Source of the DNA: Lachnospiraceae bacterium C7
Lineage (GTDB): Bacteria > Bacillota > Clostridia > Lachnospirales > Lachnospiraceae
NCBI GenBank assembly: GCA_900113385.1
Contig: FOPE01000025.1
Span: 1 to 46,284 of the forward strand
Reading direction: 5' to 3'
Length of the DNA: 46,284 nt
Shown: positions 31,751 to 41,234 of the stretch, piece after piece
Layout: the number at the start of each line of letters is the position of its first letter
Numbering within the stretch: position 1 is the stretch's first letter
The notes under the pieces: model-generated
Seen by the model: the letters and a program-made list of their open reading frames with translations, nothing else
The model's database searches: none
Told to the model about the DNA's origin: nothing
Position numbers and translations under genes: made by a program

Positions 31751-32095
31751 CATGTCTTATGATTAATTGTAGGCAATTGATATGTAGACAAGGATTATTT
31801 CAACTTAATGTAAGTGAAATAGTCATAAGTGTTTCAAAACTTCTATGGTACATCTAAACGAAACATCTAAGTTTAATCTAAAAGTACCTAGTTACATCGT
31901 AGTTACATCATGGTCACATCAAGAGTACCCAAAATGAGCAAAGAAATGACAATGTAGTAGGTAAAAATGTGTTGCTTTTTGATAGGGAAAAACATTATTT
32001 TTACCAGGTAGTTAAATTCCTACTGAATGGAAATGACTTTAGCACGAATTCATTAAAAGTTAATTGCTGTTCAATAGGAAACAAAGGAGAACAAC
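31751..32095 (+). other. Long leader of the GGDEF gene (about 345 nt)
   Basis: Non-coding. It has clustered ACATC/TCACATC repeats (31852-31920, for example GTTACATC twice) and a hairpin whose arms GGTAAAAAT (31960) and ATTTTTACC (31997) are continued by a TTTTT/AAAAA stem. AGTAGG (31956) and CCTACT (32019) offer a competing outer pairing. I do not recognise a c-di-GMP or other riboswitch here. Confidence 0.4.
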
Positions 32096-33163
32096 ATGGA
32101 ATTTTTGTTTCCAAAGCAAATTGCTAAAAGGGACAAAGAAACTTTCTATCAAAGTAAGTATGAATATTATGGAAGAATAGGGCATTTTGCAGTTATTATG
32201 ATGGGAATAGCTGAAATGATTTATTTTTTTACAGACTGCCAATTATTCGGGAAAATCAAATTAGATACTTTACTACCAAGGCTTTCGGTTTTAATACCAT
32301 TAGTTTTATATATACTAGTTCATAAAAAAAGAAAAGATTATAAAATTAATATGATTTTTGCATATCTTGTAGCCCATGGATCGATGTGGGCAACAATATG
32401 GGCAGTATATTTTCTTGAAAATAAGGATTTTGCTAGGGAAGGTTTCATAATAATGCATTTTGGTTTTATGATTATAGGGTTATGTTATCCAGTAAAATAT
32501 TCTGGACCAATACATAGCTTAATGCTATTAAACATAGCCATATCTAATCAATTTATACATTATGAAGCGTACACCATGATGATAACGTTAGCGATTCCTT
32601 TATATTTTTCAATCGTTTTAATGGAAAAAGTAGTAGAAAATTCCTTTGTTCAACAGTATAATGCTCAAAAAAAATTAGCTGAATTATCGACTACCGATCA
32701 GTTGACACAAGTTTATAACAGAAACAAACTAGACAGTATAGTAGAGCCCGGAACTGAAGCATTTGCTTTCGATGACGTAGAGAATATCGTTATGCTTATA
32801 CTAGACATTGATTATTTTAAAAAAATAAATGATACATATGGCCATGAAGATGGTGATAAAATATTAGTATTTGTGACAGAACAAATCAAGCGTCAGATAA
32901 GAAGTGATGATATGATAATTAGATGGGGCGGAGAAGAATTCGTAATCATTTTGAAAAACTTGTCACCAGAAGTCGGAAAAAGGATTGCTGAAAGAATTCG
33001 TCAATCAATTGAGAAAGCAGATAATCAAGTTAGCCCAATAACAGTATCGATAGGTGTTGCAGCGTATGATAAACATAGTTATAGGGAAACTTTCAAAGAG
33101 GCCGATAAAGCTCTTTATAACGCGAAGAGAAAAGGCCGTAACAAAGTGTGCTGTAGTTTTTAA
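32096..33163 (+). CDS. Membrane diguanylate cyclase (GGEEF)
   Basis: A protein of 355 residues. About six membrane helices (about 28-185) form an uncharacterised sensor, followed by a short coiled linker and a GGDEF domain with STTDQLTQVYNRNKL, LILDIDYFKKINDTYGHEDGD and RWGGEEF (about 277-281). An inhibitory-site RSDD lies five residues before GGEEF, so product feedback is expected. It makes c-di-GMP from two GTP. AAAGGAG supports the ATG. It has its own promoter, long leader and terminator. Confidence 0.93.
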   Translation: MEFLFPKQIAKRDKETFYQSKYEYYGRIGHFAVIMMGIAEMIYFFTDCQLFGKIKLDTLLPRLSVLIPLVLYILVHKKRKDYKINMIFAYLVAHGSMWATIWAVYFLENKDFAREGFIIMHFGFMIIGLCYPVKYSGPIHSLMLLNIAISNQFIHYEAYTMMITLAIPLYFSIVLMEKVVENSFVQQYNAQKKLAELSTTDQLTQVYNRNKLDSIVEPGTEAFAFDDVENIVMLILDIDYFKKINDTYGHEDGDKILVFVTEQIKRQIRSDDMIIRWGGEEFVIILKNLSPEVGKRIAERIRQSIEKADNQVSPITVSIGVAAYDKHSYRETFKEADKALYNAKRKGRNKVCCSF

Positions 33164-33223
33164 AACAGCACAAATATTCAATCAAATGTAAGATATATAG
33201 AATTTCTCCAGATTAATATATTT

Positions 33224-33268
33224 AAAAGCTACCTAATGCAAACTGCGATGTGTTGTGGTAGCTTTTTT
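33224..33268 (+). terminator. Terminator of the GGDEF gene
   Basis: AAAAGCTACC pairs with GGTAGCTTTT, followed by more T; the loop is about 22 bases. Confidence 0.85.
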
Positions 33269-33307
33269 GTTATGTAAAAAGGTGACAATGAATAAAAAAG
33301 AAAATTG

Positions 33308-33336
33308 TTTACAAACCTATGTTCGTGATGTATAAT
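33308..33336 (+). promoter_or_regulatory. Promoter of the Y-family polymerase operon
   Basis: TTTACA, a 17-base spacer and TATAAT, preceded by TTG. The spacer contains a LexA-type box, so repression by blocking RNA polymerase is expected. The leader up to 33500 is about 155 bases. Confidence 0.7.
33312..33325 (+). promoter_or_regulatory. LexA/SOS-type box
   Basis: CAAACCTATGTTCG against the Gram-positive LexA box CGAAC-N4-GTTCG: nine of ten fixed positions match. It lies between -35 and -10. Confidence 0.6.
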
Positions 33337-33357
33337 TGAAAGTGTTCGAAAATCTGT

Positions 33358-33383
33358 TTGCGAACAAAATATAATGTTCGCAA
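33358..33383 (+). promoter_or_regulatory. Large GCGAAC…GTTCGC dyad downstream of the promoter
   Basis: TTGCGAAC and GTTCGCAA are perfect inverted arms separated by ten bases. A further TGTTCG at 33343 pairs with CGAACA at 33361 at a 12-base distance. The half-sites are those of a LexA box but the spacing is wider, so either a second repressor site or an RNA hairpin. Confidence 0.5.
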
Positions 33384-33499
33384 TCTATAAGCTAATATTA
33401 AGTAGATAATAAGATGTATTTAGATAGATAATAAGATAAATTTGGAAAGGAGGATGTTACTGCTAAGACATATAACTATGTAAAAGTGAGCCAGGCGCA

Positions 33500-34906
33500 G
33501 TGACAGAAAATCATATGCAAGCTATCAAAAGAGAGAATAGAATATACATAGCAATAGATCTTAAGTCTTTTTACGCATCTGTAGAATGTGTTGAAAGGGG
33601 ATTAGATCCATTAAAAGCAAAGTTAGTAGTTGCTGATCCTACTCGCACAGATAAGACTATATGTTTAGCAGTTTCTCCAGCCCTTAAAGCATACGGAATT
33701 CCAGGAAGAATTAGACTATTTGAAGTGAAGCAAAAGCTTAAGATAATAGAAGAAAGAACAGGGAAAAAAATAGATTTTGAAATAGCACCTCCTCAAATGG
33801 CACATTATATTAAGATATCGAGTGAAATTTACGAAGTCTATCTCAAGTATGTTAGTCCAGAAGACATTCATGTTTATAGCATAGATGAGTGCTTTATAGA
33901 TGTGACACATTATCTAGAGTTGTACCACATGACACCTAAGCAATTAGCAACTGCTATGATACATGATGTGCTAGACAAGACAGGTATAACTGCAACAGCC
34001 GGGATAGGGACTAATTTATACCTTGCTAAGATTTCTATGGATATTGTTGCAAAGCATGTAAGTGCTGATGAATATGGTGTTAGAATAGCGTCCTTAGATG
34101 AGATGACTTATAGAAAATTGTTATGGGGACATAGACCAATGACTGATTTTTGGAGAATAGGCAATGGAATAGCAAAACGCCTAGAAAAAATCGGTCTTTA
34201 TACTATGGGAGACGTTGCTAGAGCATCTATTTATGAAGAGGATGTTTTATATAAAGAATTTGGAATAGATGCAGAACTTTTAATAGATCACGCATGGGGA
34301 TTTGAACCTTGTACGATTAAGCAGATTAAGAATTATAAGCCAACTATAAACAGCATATCGTCAGGGCAGGTTTTGCATACTCCATATGATATAGATAAAG
34401 CACGTCTTATAGTGAAAGAAATGACTGATTCATTAGTTTTAGATTTAGTAGAAAAAGGATTAAGTACGGATTCAGTCACTTTAACAGTGGGCTACGAACG
34501 AATTGAAGAGACTACATTAGGGGGAAAATATAATGGGAAAGTAGCCGTGGATAGGTATGGACGAATTATTCCAAAATCAGCTCATGGAACGGCAAACCTT
34601 CGTGGACATACTAGTAGTACATCTAAGATAATGGACGGCGTTTTAAAACTTTACGATAAGATTATTGATAACAATTTACAAGTACGTAGGATTACTATTT
34701 GTGCTAATAATGTAACTAATCAAGGTTATGAACAACTTGATCTATTTTCTAATACAGAGCAAAATGAAAAGGAAAAGAAGATACAAGAAGCAATGCTTTC
34801 AATAAAAAAGAAATATGGAAAGAATTCTATTTTAAAAGGCATGAATTTAGAAGAAGGTGCTACAGAAAGAATGAGAAATGAACAAATAGGAGGACACAAA
34901 GCATAA
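33500..34906 (+). CDS. Y-family translesion DNA polymerase (UvrX/ImuB/UmuC-like)
   Basis: A protein of 468 residues. Seen: IAIDLKSFYASVECVERG (catalytic Asp near 18), YSIDECFIDVT (catalytic Asp-Glu near 130), TAGIGTNLYLAKI (helix-hairpin-helix region begins after it) and a beta-clamp motif QLDLFS near 412. It copies damaged DNA with low fidelity. Start: GTG at 33500, which overlaps the stop of a short upstream frame (GTGA); the next ATG is at 33515 and has no ribosome site. A strong AAAGGAGG at 33446 lies too far away to serve it directly. First clear gene of a LexA-type controlled operon; the next gene is its usual YolD-like partner. Confidence 0.92.
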   Translation: MTENHMQAIKRENRIYIAIDLKSFYASVECVERGLDPLKAKLVVADPTRTDKTICLAVSPALKAYGIPGRIRLFEVKQKLKIIEERTGKKIDFEIAPPQMAHYIKISSEIYEVYLKYVSPEDIHVYSIDECFIDVTHYLELYHMTPKQLATAMIHDVLDKTGITATAGIGTNLYLAKISMDIVAKHVSADEYGVRIASLDEMTYRKLLWGHRPMTDFWRIGNGIAKRLEKIGLYTMGDVARASIYEEDVLYKEFGIDAELLIDHAWGFEPCTIKQIKNYKPTINSISSGQVLHTPYDIDKARLIVKEMTDSLVLDLVEKGLSTDSVTLTVGYERIEETTLGGKYNGKVAVDRYGRIIPKSAHGTANLRGHTSSTSKIMDGVLKLYDKIIDNNLQVRRITICANNVTNQGYEQLDLFSNTEQNEKEKKIQEAMLSIKKKYGKNSILKGMNLEEGATERMRNEQIGGHKA

Positions 34907-35358
34907 TGGTTAAAAATCCAGTTGGAAAAAATAATAGATATACACACAAATATGATGACATTATTAAGCTTGATTATCCTACATTTCGCAATAAGGACAG
35001 TCTTATGAAGCATCCTAAGATGAATTTAGATGATAGAGCAAAAATATTCATGCCATTTGCAGCATTAAAAGGCTATGAAGATGCTATTAAAGAAAAACAA
35101 AGGGTTATAGTCCCAAGAAAAGAGTTATCCGAAGAAAGTAAAGAATCAATAGATTATTGTTTAAAAATTATAGAAAAAAACTTACAAGATAATACACATC
35201 CAGTTACAAAAGTGGTATATTTTTTAGAAGAAGATGATGATTATGTAAGCTTTACTGGAAAAGTTGCAAAATTAAATCTTTATTTAAAATATATTCAAAT
35301 AGTAGATAGAGAAATATTTTTAGACGATATCTACTCATTAGAAATAATAGGAGTGTAA
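34906..35358 (+). CDS. YolD-like protein, partner of the Y-family polymerase
   Basis: A protein of 150 residues. The N-terminus NPVGKNNRYTHKYDDIIKL and DRAKIFMPFAALKGYEDAIKEK (about 45-66) are typical of the YolD-like family in Clostridia, which sits directly beside UvrX/ImuB-type polymerases. The second half is a small beta-rich domain (VTKVVYFLEEDDDYVSFTGKVAKLN). Its ATG overlaps the polymerase stop (TAATG), so the two are coupled. It probably binds or regulates the polymerase; the mechanism is not established. Confidence 0.85.
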   Translation: MVKNPVGKNNRYTHKYDDIIKLDYPTFRNKDSLMKHPKMNLDDRAKIFMPFAALKGYEDAIKEKQRVIVPRKELSEESKESIDYCLKIIEKNLQDNTHPVTKVVYFLEEDDDYVSFTGKVAKLNLYLKYIQIVDREIFLDDIYSLEIIGV

Positions 35359-35362
35359 ATAT

Positions 35363-36253
35363 ATGGACGAGATGACACAAAGCAAGGTAGAACCAATTAA
35401 AGAAATCAAAAAAGACGTTAAAAGATTGGTTGTAGTTGTTATTGCAGCGGTATTAATGGCTGTTAATATTAAGCTATTAGTAAGAAATGGAAAATTATAT
35501 CCAGGCGGTGCTACAGGCCTTACAATTTTACTACAGACAGTATTTGAGGATATCTGTGGAATAAAAGTGCAATATGCGGCAATTAATATAATTTTAAATG
35601 CTTTTCCGGCATATATAGGATTTAAATTCATAGGAAAAAGATTTACAATTTTTTCGGTTATAATGATTTTAGTGAACAGTTTTGTTGTTGATATGATACC
35701 AGCATACGTTGTTACAAAAGACATATTACTTATAAGTGTTTTTGGTGGAATTATTAATGGTGTAGCTATAAGTATGTGCTTAATGGTAGATGCAACGAGT
35801 GGAGGTACAGATTTTATATCAATTTATCTATCGCAAAAACGAGGAGTAGATTCCTTTAATATTATATTAGGATTTAACGTTGTTATTTTAGTTACAGCAG
35901 GTATTCTTTTTGGATGGGATAAAGCATTATATTCTATAATATTCCAGTATGCATCAACACAGACAATTCATTTATTATATAGGAATTATCAGCAAGTTAC
36001 ATTGTATGTCGTTACAGATCATCCAAAAGAGATATGTAATGAAATATACAAAATTTGTAAACATGGAGCTACAATTATAGATGCTCACGGTAGTTTCAAA
36101 GGTGGTAATACACAGTTAGTGTATTCAGTTATTAATGCTACTGATCAAAAATATGTAATTAAGGCAATTAATGAAATAGATAGCAATGCATTTGTAAATT
36201 GCATGAATACTCAACAAGTAACAGGTAATTTTTATTATAGACCAAGAGATTAG
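35363..36253 (+). CDS. YitT family membrane protein in the repair operon
   Basis: A protein of 296 residues with the YitT layout: five helices (about 20-195), the motif ATSGGTDFISIYLSQKRG, and a DUF2179 domain at the C-terminus (about 205-290, VTLYVVTDHPKEICNEIYKICKHGATIIDAHGSF). It starts four bases after the YolD-like stop, with GGAG inside that gene, and is followed by the helicase gene after 14 bases, so it is cotranscribed with DNA-repair genes. A membrane protein of unknown cargo is unexpected there. It shares family but not close sequence with the YitT at 3481-4368. Confidence 0.88.
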   Translation: MDEMTQSKVEPIKEIKKDVKRLVVVVIAAVLMAVNIKLLVRNGKLYPGGATGLTILLQTVFEDICGIKVQYAAINIILNAFPAYIGFKFIGKRFTIFSVIMILVNSFVVDMIPAYVVTKDILLISVFGGIINGVAISMCLMVDATSGGTDFISIYLSQKRGVDSFNIILGFNVVILVTAGILFGWDKALYSIIFQYASTQTIHLLYRNYQQVTLYVVTDHPKEICNEIYKICKHGATIIDAHGSFKGGNTQLVYSVINATDQKYVIKAINEIDSNAFVNCMNTQQVTGNFYYRPRD

Positions 36254-36267
36254 AAAGGTAGAAAGAG

Positions 36268-39200
36268 ATGGCTATGGAAACTAACAAGGTTATAAAGCAA
36301 ATGAAAGAGGGTATGCAAGTGGCATACCTTAGTGGAGATGTAAATGTAGATTCTAATTTAGCATTACAACCAGATTTTGTTTCTAATGATTACAGGCAAG
36401 GCAAGAAAGTTATAGTTTCTATAGAGAGAGAATTAAAAAAATGTGATGAGTTTAAGATGAGCGTGGCTTTTATAAAGGGTAGCGCAATTAATTCATTAAG
36501 TATGACGTTAAAAGAATTAGAAACTAAAAATATTCCAGGACAAATTTTAACAACAGATTATAATTTATTTACAGAGCCAGAGGCGTTAGAAGTTCTTGCA
36601 AAATTAAAAAATATACAGGTGAGAATGTACTGTTGCACAAAAGAAATGAAAAATGCATTGGCAAAGGTAAATAAGAAAATTCCTTTTCGCGAGAACTTTC
36701 ATACCAAAGGCTATATATTTAGAAAAGACGAAATATATAGAGTTATAATAGGTAGCTCAAATATGACGTCAAGTGCTTTAACAGTAAATAGAGAGTGGAA
36801 TACAAGCTTTGTGGCAACAAAAGAAGGGCAAATGACACAGAAAATTCTTGGAGAATTCAACGAACTTTGGAATTCTGAGAATTGCTTAGAGTATAAAGAA
36901 TTCATAAAAACATATAAAGCTGTTTATGAAGAAAATAAAAAGAGAGCAGAAATTATTAGAAATCAGCAAAGGATAGCCCTTCAAAGTGACATAGTTTCGC
37001 TAGAAAATTACAAATTAGAGCCTAATAAAATGCAAGTTGGATTTATAAAGAACTTAGAAACTATTGTTAATGAAAAGAAAGATAAAGCATTGCTGATATC
37101 AGCCACAGGAACGGGAAAAACTTACGCATCAGCATTTGCTATGAGAGAGCTAGGATACAAAAGAGTATTGTTTTTAGCTCATCGTAATCAAATTATTAAA
37201 CAGGCAGCAAATTCATATTCAAAAGTATTTGGAAATACTGTAAAGACAGGTATCATTTCTGGAAGTCTTAATAAATTTGAATTAAATGCAGATTATATTT
37301 TTGCATCTATTCAGACAATGTCAAAGGATGAAAATCTTAAGAGAATACCAAAGGATTATTTTGATTGTATAATTTATGATGAAGCTCATCATAGTTCAGC
37401 TGATTCCTACCAAAAAGTTATGAGCTACTTTACTCCTCGATTATCATTAGGAATGACTGCAACTCCGGATAAAAGAGATGATAATAAAGCTGATAATAAT
37501 ATATATGAGATTTTTGAACACAACATAGTATATGAGATTCGATTACAGCAGGCAATGGAAGAGGATTTGTTATGTCCATTTCATTATTTTGGTATAGCAG
37601 ATATTGAAACTGTAACAGACATAGATAACTCGAATACAAAAAAGCAAGGTAAGGTTAAATCAATTGACCTTCAAAGATTTAATGATTTGACAAGTGATGA
37701 GAGAGTTAAGCATATATTTAATACAGCAGAGTATTATAAATACATAGGAGATAGAACAAAAGGCCTTATATTTTGTAGTAGAATTGATGAGGCAGAAGAG
37801 TTATCTACTAAATTTAATCAAATTGGTTGGCAAACAGAAGTATTATCAGGAAGTAATACAGAAGCAGAGAGAAACGAAGTTATATCAAGATTAGTTGATG
37901 ATGACATACCAGAAGAAAAAAGGTTAGATTATATTTTGTCAGTTGATATTTTTTCAGAAGGTGCTGATTTGCCACCAATAAATCAAGTTATTATGTTAAG
38001 ACCTACAGAGTCACCAATTGTATTTATACAACAATTAGGACGAGGCCTTAGAAAATATCCAGATAAAGAGTATGTTGTGATTTTAGATTTTATTGGAAAT
38101 TACAAGAATAATTTTATGATTCCAGTAGCTCTTTCAGGAGATAGGTCTTATAACAAAGATAATGCAAGAAAATATATAAAAGAAGGTAGCAGAATTATTC
38201 CAGGTGCTTCTACAATCCATTTTGATGATATTAGTGCAAAAAGAATATATGAATCGGTGGATAATGCAAATTTCCAAGAATTAAAATTTTTAAAGGAAAA
38301 TTATCACAAGCTAAAAGATAAGCTAGGAAGGATACCTAAAATAGGAGATTTTGATAGATTTGGAGAAATCGATCCAATTAAGTTTGTAGAGAAAACTGGA
38401 TCATATTATAATTTCTTAGTTAAGTATGATAAGGACTATAAAGTTAGATTTTCATCAGAGGAAGAAAATTTAATAAAATTTGTTTCACAAAAATTTATAG
38501 ATGGAAAACGTGCAAGTGAACTAATATTACTTAGAGATATGTTAGAAAATGAAAAAGATATTCTAGCCAACATGATTAATGACATGGAAAAAGAATATAA
38601 TATACAAATATCTCAAGATCAAGTAGATACAGTTATTAATGAGATGACAAATCAATTTTTGACTGGAACTAATAAAGGAAAATACGGTAAATTAGAATTA
38701 ATTCAACGTGCAGGAGAACAAAGAGATAGTGAAATGGTAGAGAGACTTAAAGCATATTATTTGCCATATACATATCACTTGTTAGAGGGGGATAAGAATT
38801 ATTATGAAGTCTCAGCTATGTTTAAAACTATTTCAAAAAATCCTGAAGTAAAAGAACATCTAAAGGAACTTATAGATTTCGGATTAAATAGATTCGAAGA
38901 AAGATATAATCATAAGCAATATAAAGGCACAGATTTTGTCTTATATGAAAAATATACATATGATGACGTATGTAGACTTCTTAATTGGGAGCAAAGTGAA
39001 GTAGCCCTTAATATAGGTGGTTATAAGTACAATGACAAGACAAAAACATTTCCGGTATTTATAAATTATAACAAGGAAGAAGATATAGCAGATACCATAA
39101 AATACGAGGATCATTTTGAAAACCGACAGATACTTTATGCAATTTCAAAGTCAGGTAGAACAAAAGATTCAGATGATGTAAAAAAATTCTTGGAGTCTAA

Positions 39201-39408
39201 AGAAAGAAATATAGAAGTTTCACTTTTTGTTAGAAAGAATAAAGAAGATAAAAATACATCAAAGGAATTTTATTATTTAGGTAGAATGACTCCAACAGGA
39301 AAAGCAGAAGAGTTTATAATGGATAATACAGATAAGACAGCTGTAGAGATTCAATGGAAGTTGGATGTACCAATTAGAGAAGATTTATACGAATATATAA
39401 CAGAATAA
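36268..39408 (+). CDS. PLD-nuclease / DEAH helicase / DUF3427 protein
   Basis: A protein of 1046 residues. N-terminal phospholipase-D-like nuclease domain (about 40-215) with NFHTKGYIF (HxK near 144) and IGSSNMTSSAL. SF2 helicase core: SATGTGKTYAS (Walker A near 279), YDEAHHSS (DEAH near 371), GMTATPDKRD (near 395) and QQLGRGLRKYPDK (motif VI near 588). The C-terminal DUF3427 region (from about 700) ends in YYLGRMTPTGKAEEF. Such proteins are thought to act in DNA repair or phage defence. Only one HxK is visible, so the nuclease half may need to dimerise. It lies 14 bases after YitT and 21 before a Nudix gene. Confidence 0.92.
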   Translation: MAMETNKVIKQMKEGMQVAYLSGDVNVDSNLALQPDFVSNDYRQGKKVIVSIERELKKCDEFKMSVAFIKGSAINSLSMTLKELETKNIPGQILTTDYNLFTEPEALEVLAKLKNIQVRMYCCTKEMKNALAKVNKKIPFRENFHTKGYIFRKDEIYRVIIGSSNMTSSALTVNREWNTSFVATKEGQMTQKILGEFNELWNSENCLEYKEFIKTYKAVYEENKKRAEIIRNQQRIALQSDIVSLENYKLEPNKMQVGFIKNLETIVNEKKDKALLISATGTGKTYASAFAMRELGYKRVLFLAHRNQIIKQAANSYSKVFGNTVKTGIISGSLNKFELNADYIFASIQTMSKDENLKRIPKDYFDCIIYDEAHHSSADSYQKVMSYFTPRLSLGMTATPDKRDDNKADNNIYEIFEHNIVYEIRLQQAMEEDLLCPFHYFGIADIETVTDIDNSNTKKQGKVKSIDLQRFNDLTSDERVKHIFNTAEYYKYIGDRTKGLIFCSRIDEAEELSTKFNQIGWQTEVLSGSNTEAERNEVISRLVDDDIPEEKRLDYILSVDIFSEGADLPPINQVIMLRPTESPIVFIQQLGRGLRKYPDKEYVVILDFIGNYKNNFMIPVALSGDRSYNKDNARKYIKEGSRIIPGASTIHFDDISAKRIYESVDNANFQELKFLKENYHKLKDKLGRIPKIGDFDRFGEIDPIKFVEKTGSYYNFLVKYDKDYKVRFSSEEENLIKFVSQKFIDGKRASELILLRDMLENEKDILANMINDMEKEYNIQISQDQVDTVINEMTNQFLTGTNKGKYGKLELIQRAGEQRDSEMVERLKAYYLPYTYHLLEGDKNYYEVSAMFKTISKNPEVKEHLKELIDFGLNRFEERYNHKQYKGTDFVLYEKYTYDDVCRLLNWEQSEVALNIGGYKYNDKTKTFPVFINYNKEEDIADTIKYEDHFENRQILYAISKSGRTKDSDDVKKFLESKERNIEVSLFVRKNKEDKNTSKEFYYLGRMTPTGKAEEFIMDNTDKTAVEIQWKLDVPIREDLYEYITE

Positions 39409-39429
39409 TTTAGTAAGAAAGGATTTTGT

Positions 39430-39828
39430 ATGAAAACAATAAAAGTTGTGGCAGCAATTATAGAAAATGAAAATAAATATTTTGCAACTCAAAGAGGCTA
39501 TGGAGAATTTAAAGATGGATGGGAGTTCCCAGGAGGAAAAATAGAAAAAGGAGAAACAGCGGAAGAAGCTTTAAAAAGAGAAATAAAAGAAGAATTAGAA
39601 GCAAAAATTAAAGTTGGTGAACATTTATGCACAGTAGAACATGATTATGAAAAATTTCACTTATCAATGGAATGTTTTATGTGTGAAGTGGAAGAAGGAA
39701 ACTTAGTATTAAAGGAGCATGAAGCTGCAAGATGGTTGACTATTAGTGAAATTGATGAAGTTGATTGGCTTCCAGCTGACATACAGGTAGTAGAAGCTCT
39801 TAAAAATATATGTGCAAATAACGCATAA
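39430..39828 (+). CDS. MutT-type Nudix hydrolase
   Basis: A 132-residue (deoxy)nucleoside triphosphate pyrophosphohydrolase. A full Nudix box runs from GGKIEKGETAEEALKREI to KEELEA (about 37-60: Gx5Ex7REUxEExG pattern, the last Gly replaced by Ala). WEFPGGK before the box is typical of MutT/8-oxo-dGTP enzymes. AAGGA supports the ATG. It follows the helicase by 21 bases; nucleotide-pool cleaning fits the SOS and repair context. I see no strong terminator directly after it. Confidence 0.93.
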   Translation: MKTIKVVAAIIENENKYFATQRGYGEFKDGWEFPGGKIEKGETAEEALKREIKEELEAKIKVGEHLCTVEHDYEKFHLSMECFMCEVEEGNLVLKEHEAARWLTISEIDEVDWLPADIQVVEALKNICANNA

Positions 39829-39962
39829 TAAGTGCAATTTAAAGGCCAAATGTATATAATAACCTTCCAAAGTATCCGATGTAATAAATATAACTGTATA
39901 CTAACTGTAGTTACTTTTTTAGTAGTAATAGTTTTGATATTTCATAGGATAGGAGGAAACAT

Positions 39963-41234
39963 ATGCACAAAAAAATTGTAAAAAACATACATTTTGCATT
40001 AGCAGGATTTGTGATTTGTTTTGGATGCTTAGTTATTGCGCAAATAGTTTCTGTTTCTATGCTGTATCAAAATTCATTAAAGTTTGAAAAGGATTATTTA
40101 AAAGATACAGTATGTAATGAAATAAATTCTATAGAAATAGCAAGAAATGAAATAAAACGAGAATGGGATGAGAGTGGAAAAGATTATACTGAAACAGATG
40201 TCAAAGTTGAAATTACAAGAATTTTGAAAAAGAAGCTACATGAAACAACATATTCAAATGAAGGATATATTTGGATTAATGAGGTTAAAAACTATGAAGG
40301 CGGAAATGACTATGGTATAAGATTGATTCACCCTAATTTGGCAGAAACTGAAGGTGAGAGATTATCCACATACACTAAAGATGCCAATGGAAATACTCCA
40401 TATAAAACAGAATTAGAAGGTGTCAAAAATAACAACGAAATTTATTATAGCTATTATTTTAAAAAATTAAATTCCAATAAAGTAGGGAAAAAAATAACTT
40501 ATGCCAAATTATATAAGAGATACGATTGGATCATATGCATGGGAGTGTATTATGATGCAGTTAAAGGAACTACATTTTTGGCAAAAGATTGGGTTCAGTG
40601 GATTTTAGGATTGGGTTATATTGCCTCATTTGGTGGAATAATTATGTTAATAATTTTTACTAGGATGAAGGTAAAAACTGAAATGCTAGCACATGATGAG
40701 GAAATGCAAGGACTTCATAAAAAAATAGATGTAGATACTTTGACGAAAGCTTGTAGTAGGCACTGTGGAGAAGAAATCCTAAAAAAGGAATTTTATTCCT
40801 ATAAACTAGGTGGTAACAGTCCTGCAATTGCAATTTTTGACATAGATCATTTTAAACAGATTAATGATAAATATGGACATAACTTTGGTGATAAAATTTT
40901 AATTACAGTTGTTAGGGCATTAAAAGGATGCTTACGAGAAAAAGATCATATAATACGATGGGGAGGCGACGAATTTATCTTAGTTTTGCCAGGACTTCCT
41001 AAAAAATCTTTGGCTACAGTCATGGAAAAATGTAATAAAATAGTTAGAATTAGTGAAGCAATAAATGAAAATAATATTGCAACATCTGTGACAATATCCA
41101 TCGGAGCTGGATACTTCGAAAAAAGCGATCTTAGTGTGGAAAGCATGATTAAACGAATAGATAATGCCCTATATGATGCAAAAAAAGAACGTAATACATA
41201 TAGAATAGCTAATACAGATTCAAATCTTACTTAG
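39963..41234 (+). CDS. Cache-domain diguanylate cyclase (GGDEF)
   Basis: A protein of 423 residues: membrane helix (about 10-32), an outside single-Cache sensor (about 40-205; EGYIWINE…, RLIHPNLAETEG, YAKLYKRYDWIICMGVYYD), a second helix (about 217-237) and a GGDEF domain. The latter has IFDIDHFKQINDKYGHNFGD and RWGGDEF (about 334-338). REKD five residues before GGDEF is an intact inhibitory site. It should make c-di-GMP in response to a small external ligand. AGGAGG supports the ATG. A separate gene 134 bases after the Nudix gene. Confidence 0.93.
   Translation: MHKKIVKNIHFALAGFVICFGCLVIAQIVSVSMLYQNSLKFEKDYLKDTVCNEINSIEIARNEIKREWDESGKDYTETDVKVEITRILKKKLHETTYSNEGYIWINEVKNYEGGNDYGIRLIHPNLAETEGERLSTYTKDANGNTPYKTELEGVKNNNEIYYSYYFKKLNSNKVGKKITYAKLYKRYDWIICMGVYYDAVKGTTFLAKDWVQWILGLGYIASFGGIIMLIIFTRMKVKTEMLAHDEEMQGLHKKIDVDTLTKACSRHCGEEILKKEFYSYKLGGNSPAIAIFDIDHFKQINDKYGHNFGDKILITVVRALKGCLREKDHIIRWGGDEFILVLPGLPKKSLATVMEKCNKIVRISEAINENNIATSVTISIGAGYFEKSDLSVESMIKRIDNALYDAKKERNTYRIANTDSNLT

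Follow-up and report, generated by a model that had tools for sequence, protein, structure and literature searches.

In a 46,284-nucleotide (nt) stretch of DNA from Lachnospiraceae bacterium C7 (contig FOPE01000025.1; hereafter the window, to which unlabelled coordinates refer), a SauUSI-family helicase gene is directly followed by a Nudix hydrolase gene, and our survey of related loci shows that helicase and Nudix are the conserved unit. We propose, with a probability of roughly 0.6, that these two genes constitute a defence module against 5-modified cytosine, which in this bacterium forms the downstream part of an SOS-type operon headed by umuC, yolD and yitT. The functional coupling of the endonuclease and the Nudix enzyme is one that we infer, and their recurrent pairing points to surveillance of one modified base at two levels, DNA and nucleotide pool. 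The two genes are as follows:

36268..39408, + strand: SauUSI-family helicase, 1046 amino acids (aa) (Pfam PLDc_2, ResIII, Helicase_C and DUF3427; PADLOC; PDB 7clg)
39430..39828, + strand: Nudix hydrolase, 132 aa, predicted 5-methyl-/5-hydroxymethyl-deoxycytidine triphosphate (dCTP) pyrophosphohydrolase (Pfam NUDIX; PADLOC PDC-S07; PDB 3gwy)

The pairing was surveyed at 140 fetched helicase loci, duplicates included, of which 60 came from genomes of the family or genus and 80 from named contigs; removal of duplicates left 130 distinct loci and 107 distinct full-length helicases (>900 aa). At 121 of the 140 loci (113 of the 130 distinct ones), the helicase gene has a Nudix gene on its own strand no more than 1.5 kb away, and the same is true of 96 of the 107 full-length helicases; the gap is at most 150 nt, overlaps counted, in 89 of these 96 pairs. 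Across 200 genomes of the family, the window's own included, the Nudix type is present in 45 of the 46 that carry the helicase versus 43 of the 154 others (Fisher 6e-19), with thresholds of at least 480 bits for the helicase and at least 115 bits for the Nudix that were set after the data had been seen. As a control for NUDIX genes in general, 12 helicase genomes were used, each chosen for an adjacent Nudix that was already known. Together they contain 100 NUDIX genes. In each genome a single one adjoins the helicase, and these 12 all belong to the PDC-S07-like type; none of the 88 others lies within 1.5 kb of a helicase gene.

The order of the two genes is not fixed. The Nudix gene is located upstream instead at one locus from Spirochaetales (L220) and at three from other families of the phylum (L314, L315 and L317), and it also precedes a SauUSI-like gene on plasmids of Hymenobacter and Lactiplantibacillus (L. 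plantarum); among 20 plasmid records with a helicase match, three were inspected (H8, H9 and the record of H11). In a Staphylococcus aureus record, the Nudix is that of PDB 5x1x over 130/130 residues (50 of 123 aligned residues are identical to the window Nudix), and the open reading frame (ORF) beginning 1 nt after it matches residues 1-499 of 7clg, that is, SauUSI; this SauUSI gene is disrupted at a later point. Although filed as a plasmid, the record also carries scrA and may be a chromosomal fragment. A Nudix tree offered too few columns to tell whether Nudix and helicase share a history and was not used.

Individual genomes show further arrangements. The helicase gene of G120 is in two parts approximately 56 kb apart on one contig (L094 and L137), with a Nudix gene directly after the L094 part and another approximately 5.8 kb before the L137 part. 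G171 (L056, L307), G095 (L075, L303) and G010 (L069) carry a helicase without an adjacent Nudix and a Nudix elsewhere in the genome, which in G171 adjoins a GmrSD gene and in G010 lies approximately 4.2 kb from the helicase.

The window helicase belongs to the SauUSI family of type IV restriction enzymes, which depend on 5-methylcytosine (5mC) or 5-hydroxymethylcytosine (5hmC), and its activity is predicted from this membership. Its best solved relative is PDB 7clg (953 aa; 5.8e-175, the match spanning PLD to DUF3427), the PDB entry for SauUSI in PMC7913695, and PADLOC classifies it as a type IV methyl-directed restriction enzyme (mREase_IV PDLC03658, 1.7e-182). The initial annotation, which had connected this nuclease-helicase with repair and defence, was therefore sound on this point. 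SauUSI is described in PMC7913695 and PMC3874153 as a dimeric PLD nuclease that has a superfamily 2 (SF2) ATPase and recognises 5mC and 5hmC through an SRA target domain; the single chain of the window helicase holds a PLD nuclease, an SF2 ATPase and a C-terminal DUF3427/SRA region. Its motifs are H145 and K147, ATGTGKT (279-285), DEAH (371-374) and QLGRGLRK (589-596). The PLD residues H145 and K147 are invariant in 109/109 aligned relatives, all of which also retain the Walker A Lys and the Asp-Glu of the DEAH motif. With the catalytic PLD motif H(X)K(X)4E and the SRA pocket residues of SauUSI taken from PMC7913695, four of the six published 5mC pocket positions are retained in the window helicase (Tyr831, Phe841, Ile842 and Asp858 in SauUSI numbering).

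The window Nudix matches the PADLOC defence candidate PDC-S07 (2.5e-52), and its closest solved relative is PDB 3gwy (Bacteroides fragilis Q5LBB1; 2.8e-30). PMC5158307 gives, for the 3gwy protein, values of 4.8e6 M-1 s-1 for 5-methyl-dCTP, 4.4e6 M-1 s-1 for 5-hydroxymethyl-dCTP (5-MeOH-dCTP) and 8.5e4 M-1 s-1 for 5-hydroxy-dCTP (5-OH-dCTP), and much lower values for canonical nucleoside triphosphates. The modified cytosines taken by this protein are those that SauUSI reads in DNA. The window Nudix scores 97.7 bits against the MutT model TIGR00586, with a cut-off of 97.9, and 88.8 against the NudG model, far under the cut-off of 156. Its Asp117 falls in the column of MutT Asn119 and NudG Asp118, which we take to be the base-recognition position; MutT Asn119 serves 8-oxoguanine recognition. 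Asp occupies this column in 121/121 helicase-linked Nudix proteins, duplicates included, and in 56 of 58 further members of the Nudix type, the other two having Asn. The Nudix box residues E42, E51, E54 and E55 are present in 121/121 linked proteins and R50 in 120/121. We consider the window Nudix most likely to be a 5-(hydroxy)methyl-dCTP hydrolase, the usual neighbour of a SauUSI-type enzyme, rather than a cleaner of oxidised nucleotides; the initial annotation had called it a nucleotide-pool cleaner.

In the mechanism that we envisage, the SauUSI-type enzyme, as expected of its family, would bind DNA containing 5mC or 5hmC through its C-terminal SRA/DUF3427 region, translocate by means of ATP hydrolysis and then shred the DNA with its PLD nuclease dimer. 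The same base would be recognised by the pair in the polymer and in the monomer. Modified dCTP could originate from the breakdown of modified foreign DNA or from phage nucleotide kinases; the Nudix would keep it out of newly made host DNA, leaving the neighbouring endonuclease without a self target, and would also lower the modified dCTP required by phages with modified genomes. Because the module sits behind a LexA-type promoter, joint induction with translesion synthesis after DNA damage would be expected, a step that draws on sequence evidence from the window species and one congener (G247). The Nudix probably serves to prevent self-restriction. We favour such self-protection over a purely offensive role, because any 5-methyl-dCTP in the pool is a hazard for a cell with a 5mC-reading nuclease and because the partners of this Nudix type include Vsr and C5-methyltransferases.

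These partners came to light at loci beyond the helicase pairs. We collected 44 loci in which a PDC-S07-type Nudix does not adjoin a full SauUSI-like gene (some of these genomes carry the helicase elsewhere), and at 12 of them another type IV-like nuclease or a remnant of one stands next to the Nudix. An McrA-like HNH protein adjoins it in L271, L284, L294, L298 and L305, and a 118-aa McrA-like fragment lies 335 nt away in L293; the L271 protein matches 6ghc (EcoKMcrA) at 3e-24, and those of L271 and L294 match PADLOC mREase_IV, the other McrA-like proteins being grouped by sequence similarity. A second PLD-helicase clade, also mREase_IV, is represented beside the Nudix in L278, L279 and L309 (on the opposite strand in L309), DUF3427 remnants in L276 and L281, and a GmrSD protein in L307. 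In a Collinsella aerofaciens plasmid record, Nudix and Vsr are fused into one protein (L328 4001-4990); Vsr repairs deaminated 5mC. Of nine unannotated phage-collection records with the Nudix, four were inspected; its neighbour is a SauUSI-like protein in two, a Schlafen-type helicase in one and a member of the second PLD-helicase clade in the remaining one.

A broader reading, which we put forward tentatively and at somewhat less than even odds, is that of a general two-level immunity, in which unrelated endonucleases acting against 5-modified-cytosine DNA (SauUSI, McrA-like, GmrSD and the second PLD-helicase clade) would have in common a single Nudix family, destroying the corresponding modified deoxynucleoside triphosphate. 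The Nudix would then represent a built-in antidote against self-restriction during salvage from degraded invaders, placed under SOS control in some species.

Other features recur around this Nudix type. An HNH_4 protein (138-406 aa as found) is encoded near it in L268 (7387-8496), L275, L280, L288, L271 and L364; for the L268 protein, no PDB relative was found at E 0.01, and the AlphaFold model is poor (mean predicted local distance difference test score, pLDDT, 59.7). The Nudix shares one frame with a metallo-beta-lactamase-fold, methyltransferase, GNAT or M20 peptidase domain in L283, L288, L291, L301 and L281. On a Lactiplantibacillus plasmid (L330 2589-7984), the Nudix and a SauUSI-like helicase are accompanied by a second nucleotide pyrophosphohydrolase and a DNA/RNA helicase-domain protein. 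G039 (L310, L311) has two additional, more distant Nudix copies, each situated between genes of approximately 350 aa and 280-290 aa, followed by a gene of 765-811 aa.

In the window, the helicase and Nudix genes are preceded on the same strand by the following features:

33308..33336, + strand: sigma-A-type promoter TTTACA-17-TATAAT (11/12 consensus positions; consensus match only)
33312..33325, + strand: LexA/SOS-type box CAAACCTATGTTCG in the promoter spacer, between -35 and -10 (pattern match)
33500..34906, + strand: Y-family (UmuC/DinB-like) translesion polymerase, 468 aa (Pfam IMS 3.9e-28, IMS_C 1.8e-12)
34906..35358, + strand: YolD-like protein, 150 aa (place after umuC; PF08863 below cut-off)
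35363..36253, + strand: YitT family membrane protein with DUF2179, 296 aa (PF02588 4.1e-50, PF10035 2.7e-13)

The ORF coordinates confirm the five genes, their strand and their operon-like spacing as first described, with intergenic gaps of -1, 4, 14 and 21 nt; 134 nt separate the Nudix gene from the next gene. The name of the second gene is mainly positional, because its PF08863 (YolD) score is 16.4 bits against a cut-off of 27.5, and it is otherwise without a Pfam match. A promoter scan of 32000-41000 returned 51 sites versus 52 in shuffled sequences, that is, no excess, and the site at 33308-33336 is the best promoter among them. Terminator-like sites in this interval are not above the frequency in shuffled sequence, and none was found within it on the + strand. 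The LexA-type box reported in the promoter by the initial annotation withstood closer inspection: the exact pattern CAAACNNNNGTTCG has only two sites in the 2.84-Mb genome, one in this promoter and one just upstream of recA, and in G247 a similar box, CAAACCTTAGTTCG, lies between the -35 and -10 elements of umuC, the same promoter position as in the window. We take the predicted box as real. With one mismatch allowed, CAAACNNNNGTTCG is not enriched in the genome (46 places versus 99 for the reversed control); since the reversed control gives more, weaker matches are uninformative. The lexA promoter offers no more than GAACATATTTTC, which departs from GAAC-4-GTTC at one position. A perfect inverted repeat, TTGCGAACA-8-TGTTCGCAA, is found downstream of the -10 box at 33358-33383; its half-sites are the same as those of the SOS box and its spacing is wider, and the G247 promoter showed no counterpart. 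The operon lies between two GGDEF-domain genes (32096-33163 and 39963-41234), of which the downstream one, Cache-GGDEF, holds the same place in G247.

The upstream part of this arrangement is rare. Relatives of umuC, yolD and yitT (>60 bits) accompany the helicase at only 1 of the 140 loci, L130 of G247, and the fetched sequence extends 3 kb or more upstream at 118 of the 140; a five-gene defence unit as a general system was rejected on these counts. Of 60 genomes of the genus, 8 have a YitT match at E 1e-60, and within the fetched stretches umuC-yolD stands next to a YitT match only in the window and in G247. The single five-part system suggested at the outset is thus not recurrent; of the genes whose co-occurrence in relatives had been held decisive, helicase and Nudix keep company widely, whereas polymerase, YolD and YitT almost never join them. 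In G247, the order umuC-yolD-yitT-helicase-Nudix-Cache/GGDEF is as in the window, with identities of 64, 41, 67, 48, 57 and 50 percent, respectively. In the helicase tree, the window enzyme falls into a 29-row clade (support 100) together with relatives from other genera and the G247 enzyme into a different one of 10 rows (support 100), and forcing the two together costs 406 log units (approximately unbiased (AU) test, p=0.002, 25 rows; the pair was chosen for this test after its low identity had been seen). Different helicase clades are found in the same place, and therefore different SauUSI alleles would have occupied one slot behind the LexA-type promoter. G081 has another PLD-helicase-Nudix pair 1.75 kb ahead of umuC-yolD, and LexA-like boxes are located between the two. 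The cases of G247 and G081 suggest that SOS control of the module is useful.

Several observations weigh against the two-gene module and its SOS setting. Eleven of the 107 full-length helicases have no Nudix within 1.5 kb; among these, L166, L193 and L196 have less than 300 nt of contig left, and L204 and L213 have a Nudix 1.8 and 3.8 kb away. Among distant relatives, 14 loci were fetched from a draw across the phylum: at the five with a full DUF3427 match, the Nudix is upstream in three, on the opposite strand in one (L316) and absent from one (L318), and at the nine from a more distant PLD-helicase clade it is adjacent in two, approximately 2.3 kb away in one and absent from six. The Nudix type also appears to have an independent life, because 32 of the 44 other Nudix loci are without a recognised type IV partner (some have HNH_4 proteins, C5-methyltransferases or Schlafen-type helicases as neighbours) and because the 43 Nudix-bearing genomes mentioned above lack a helicase of at least 480 bits. 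Of six plasmid Nudix records, two lie beside a SauUSI-like gene, one is the Vsr fusion and three have no recognised type IV gene as direct neighbour, and the McrA-like match of L271 is limited to the HNH part. In the window helicase, the SauUSI pocket residues Trp868 and Met829 are replaced by Ala958 and Ile916, and Glu126 of the PLD motif by Arg152, a position at which the family mostly has Lys or Arg. The window Nudix and the assayed 3gwy protein are relatives rather than established orthologues, the activities of both window proteins are predictions, and SOS control of the helicase and Nudix genes is read from gene spacing. Helicase carriers show no significant avoidance of C5-methyltransferases (21/46 versus 89/154, p=0.18), contrary to what self-protection would predict, which weakens a simple autoimmunity picture; in the window's own genome, no C5-methyltransferase was found.

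The Nudix might alternatively be offensive, stripping phage-made 5-hydroxymethyl- and 5-methyl-dCTP and thereby blocking modified genomes, with the endonuclease cutting the rest and self-protection being secondary. Both 5-hydroxymethyl-dCTP and 5-methyl-dCTP are substrates of the 3gwy protein (PMC5158307), one partner is of the GmrSD type, a family that targets 5hmC, plain or glucosylated (PMC12707154), and the Nudix is itself a PADLOC defence candidate. Nevertheless, we regard this role as unlikely: depletion of modified dCTP would yield unmodified phage DNA, which the endonuclease would be expected to ignore, and the Vsr fusion and C5-methyltransferase neighbours at some loci point to host-made 5mC too. 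An ordinary cleaner of oxidised nucleotides (8-oxo-deoxyguanosine triphosphate or 5-hydroxy-dCTP) within a DNA-repair operon appears improbable. Asp replaces MutT Asn119 in all of the linked proteins, the best solved relative is approximately 50-fold slower on 5-hydroxy-dCTP (PMC5158307), and the partners are restriction nucleases, with a polymerase nearby at 1/140 loci, even though the TIGR00586 score falls just below its cut-off and the SOS context would suit such a function.

The remaining two explanations concern the meaning of adjacency. It is quite unlikely, in our estimation, that all five genes are one SOS-induced unit acting jointly after damage, given that the arrangement recurs at a single fetched helicase locus and that the LexA-like boxes between Nudix and umuC in G081 suggest separate transcripts; the tight spacing, the single LexA-type box common to recA, the order and box kept in G247 with the slot retained while the helicase clade changed, and the G081 pair close to umuC-yolD are what such a unit has in its favour. 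Mere clustering in defence islands, with endonuclease and Nudix functionally unlinked, is highly improbable. Several Nudix loci do lie near C5-methyltransferases, Schlafen-type helicases or other defence-type genes, and 32 of the 44 other Nudix loci lack a recognised type IV partner, but clustering of this kind is at odds with the absence of the 88 other NUDIX genes from the vicinity of the helicase, with the short gaps in 89/96 pairs, and with the swaps of gene order and the unrelated type IV partners. We retain the helicase-Nudix module directed against 5-modified cytosine as our preferred reading.

Parts of this picture are already known, namely SauUSI, NudG, the 3gwy protein and, in print, the adjacency of SauUSI and MutT homologues in Streptococcus, which is given in the legend of Fig. 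9 of PMC7641849. There, the MutT neighbour is labelled only as a small 'DNA repair' protein, and section 11 of that paper gives neither substrate nor mechanism for it. The main text of the SauUSI mechanism paper (PMC7913695) makes no mention of MutT, Nudix, operon or pyrophosphohydrolase, and 5x1x, the Nudix ahead of SauUSI in the S. aureus record, was deposited as 'Mutator mutT protein'. No paper linking the substrate of the Nudix with type IV restriction was found in a literature search that mostly covered material other than full texts; the SauUSI discovery paper, outside this search, may mention the neighbouring gene. In S. aureus, SauUSI has been studied as an obstacle to gene transfer (PMC7913695). 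If the proposed module is correct, then the escape of a host from its own modification-dependent nuclease despite modified-nucleotide salvage would be directly testable with two proteins and one laboratory strain, and the measured activity of the 3gwy protein, and possibly that of E. coli NudG, would acquire a biological use.

Among known systems, SauUSI resembles the window enzyme in its domain order (PLD, SF2 ATPase, coupler, SRA/DUF3427) and in the catalytic HxK common to both, but differs in its length (953 versus 1046 aa), in having Trp868 where the window enzyme has Ala, in the upstream position of the Nudix gene in S. aureus, which is downstream in the window, and in that the window enzyme is encoded in an SOS-type operon. 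By the PADLOC model, PDC-S07 is the same Nudix family as the window Nudix. Q5LBB1 (3gwy), a 5-methyl-/5-hydroxymethyl-(d)CTP hydrolase, likewise carries Asp in the base-recognition column, as the alignment printed in PMC5158307 shows, and its closest plasmid match is the Hymenobacter Nudix that precedes a SauUSI-like gene. E. coli NudG (Orf135), a 5-methyl-dCTP/5-hydroxy-CTP hydrolase, shares the Asp118 column and a related sequence (2rrk) with the window Nudix, but its gene is located between ynjF and ynjH and has no adjoining restriction gene.

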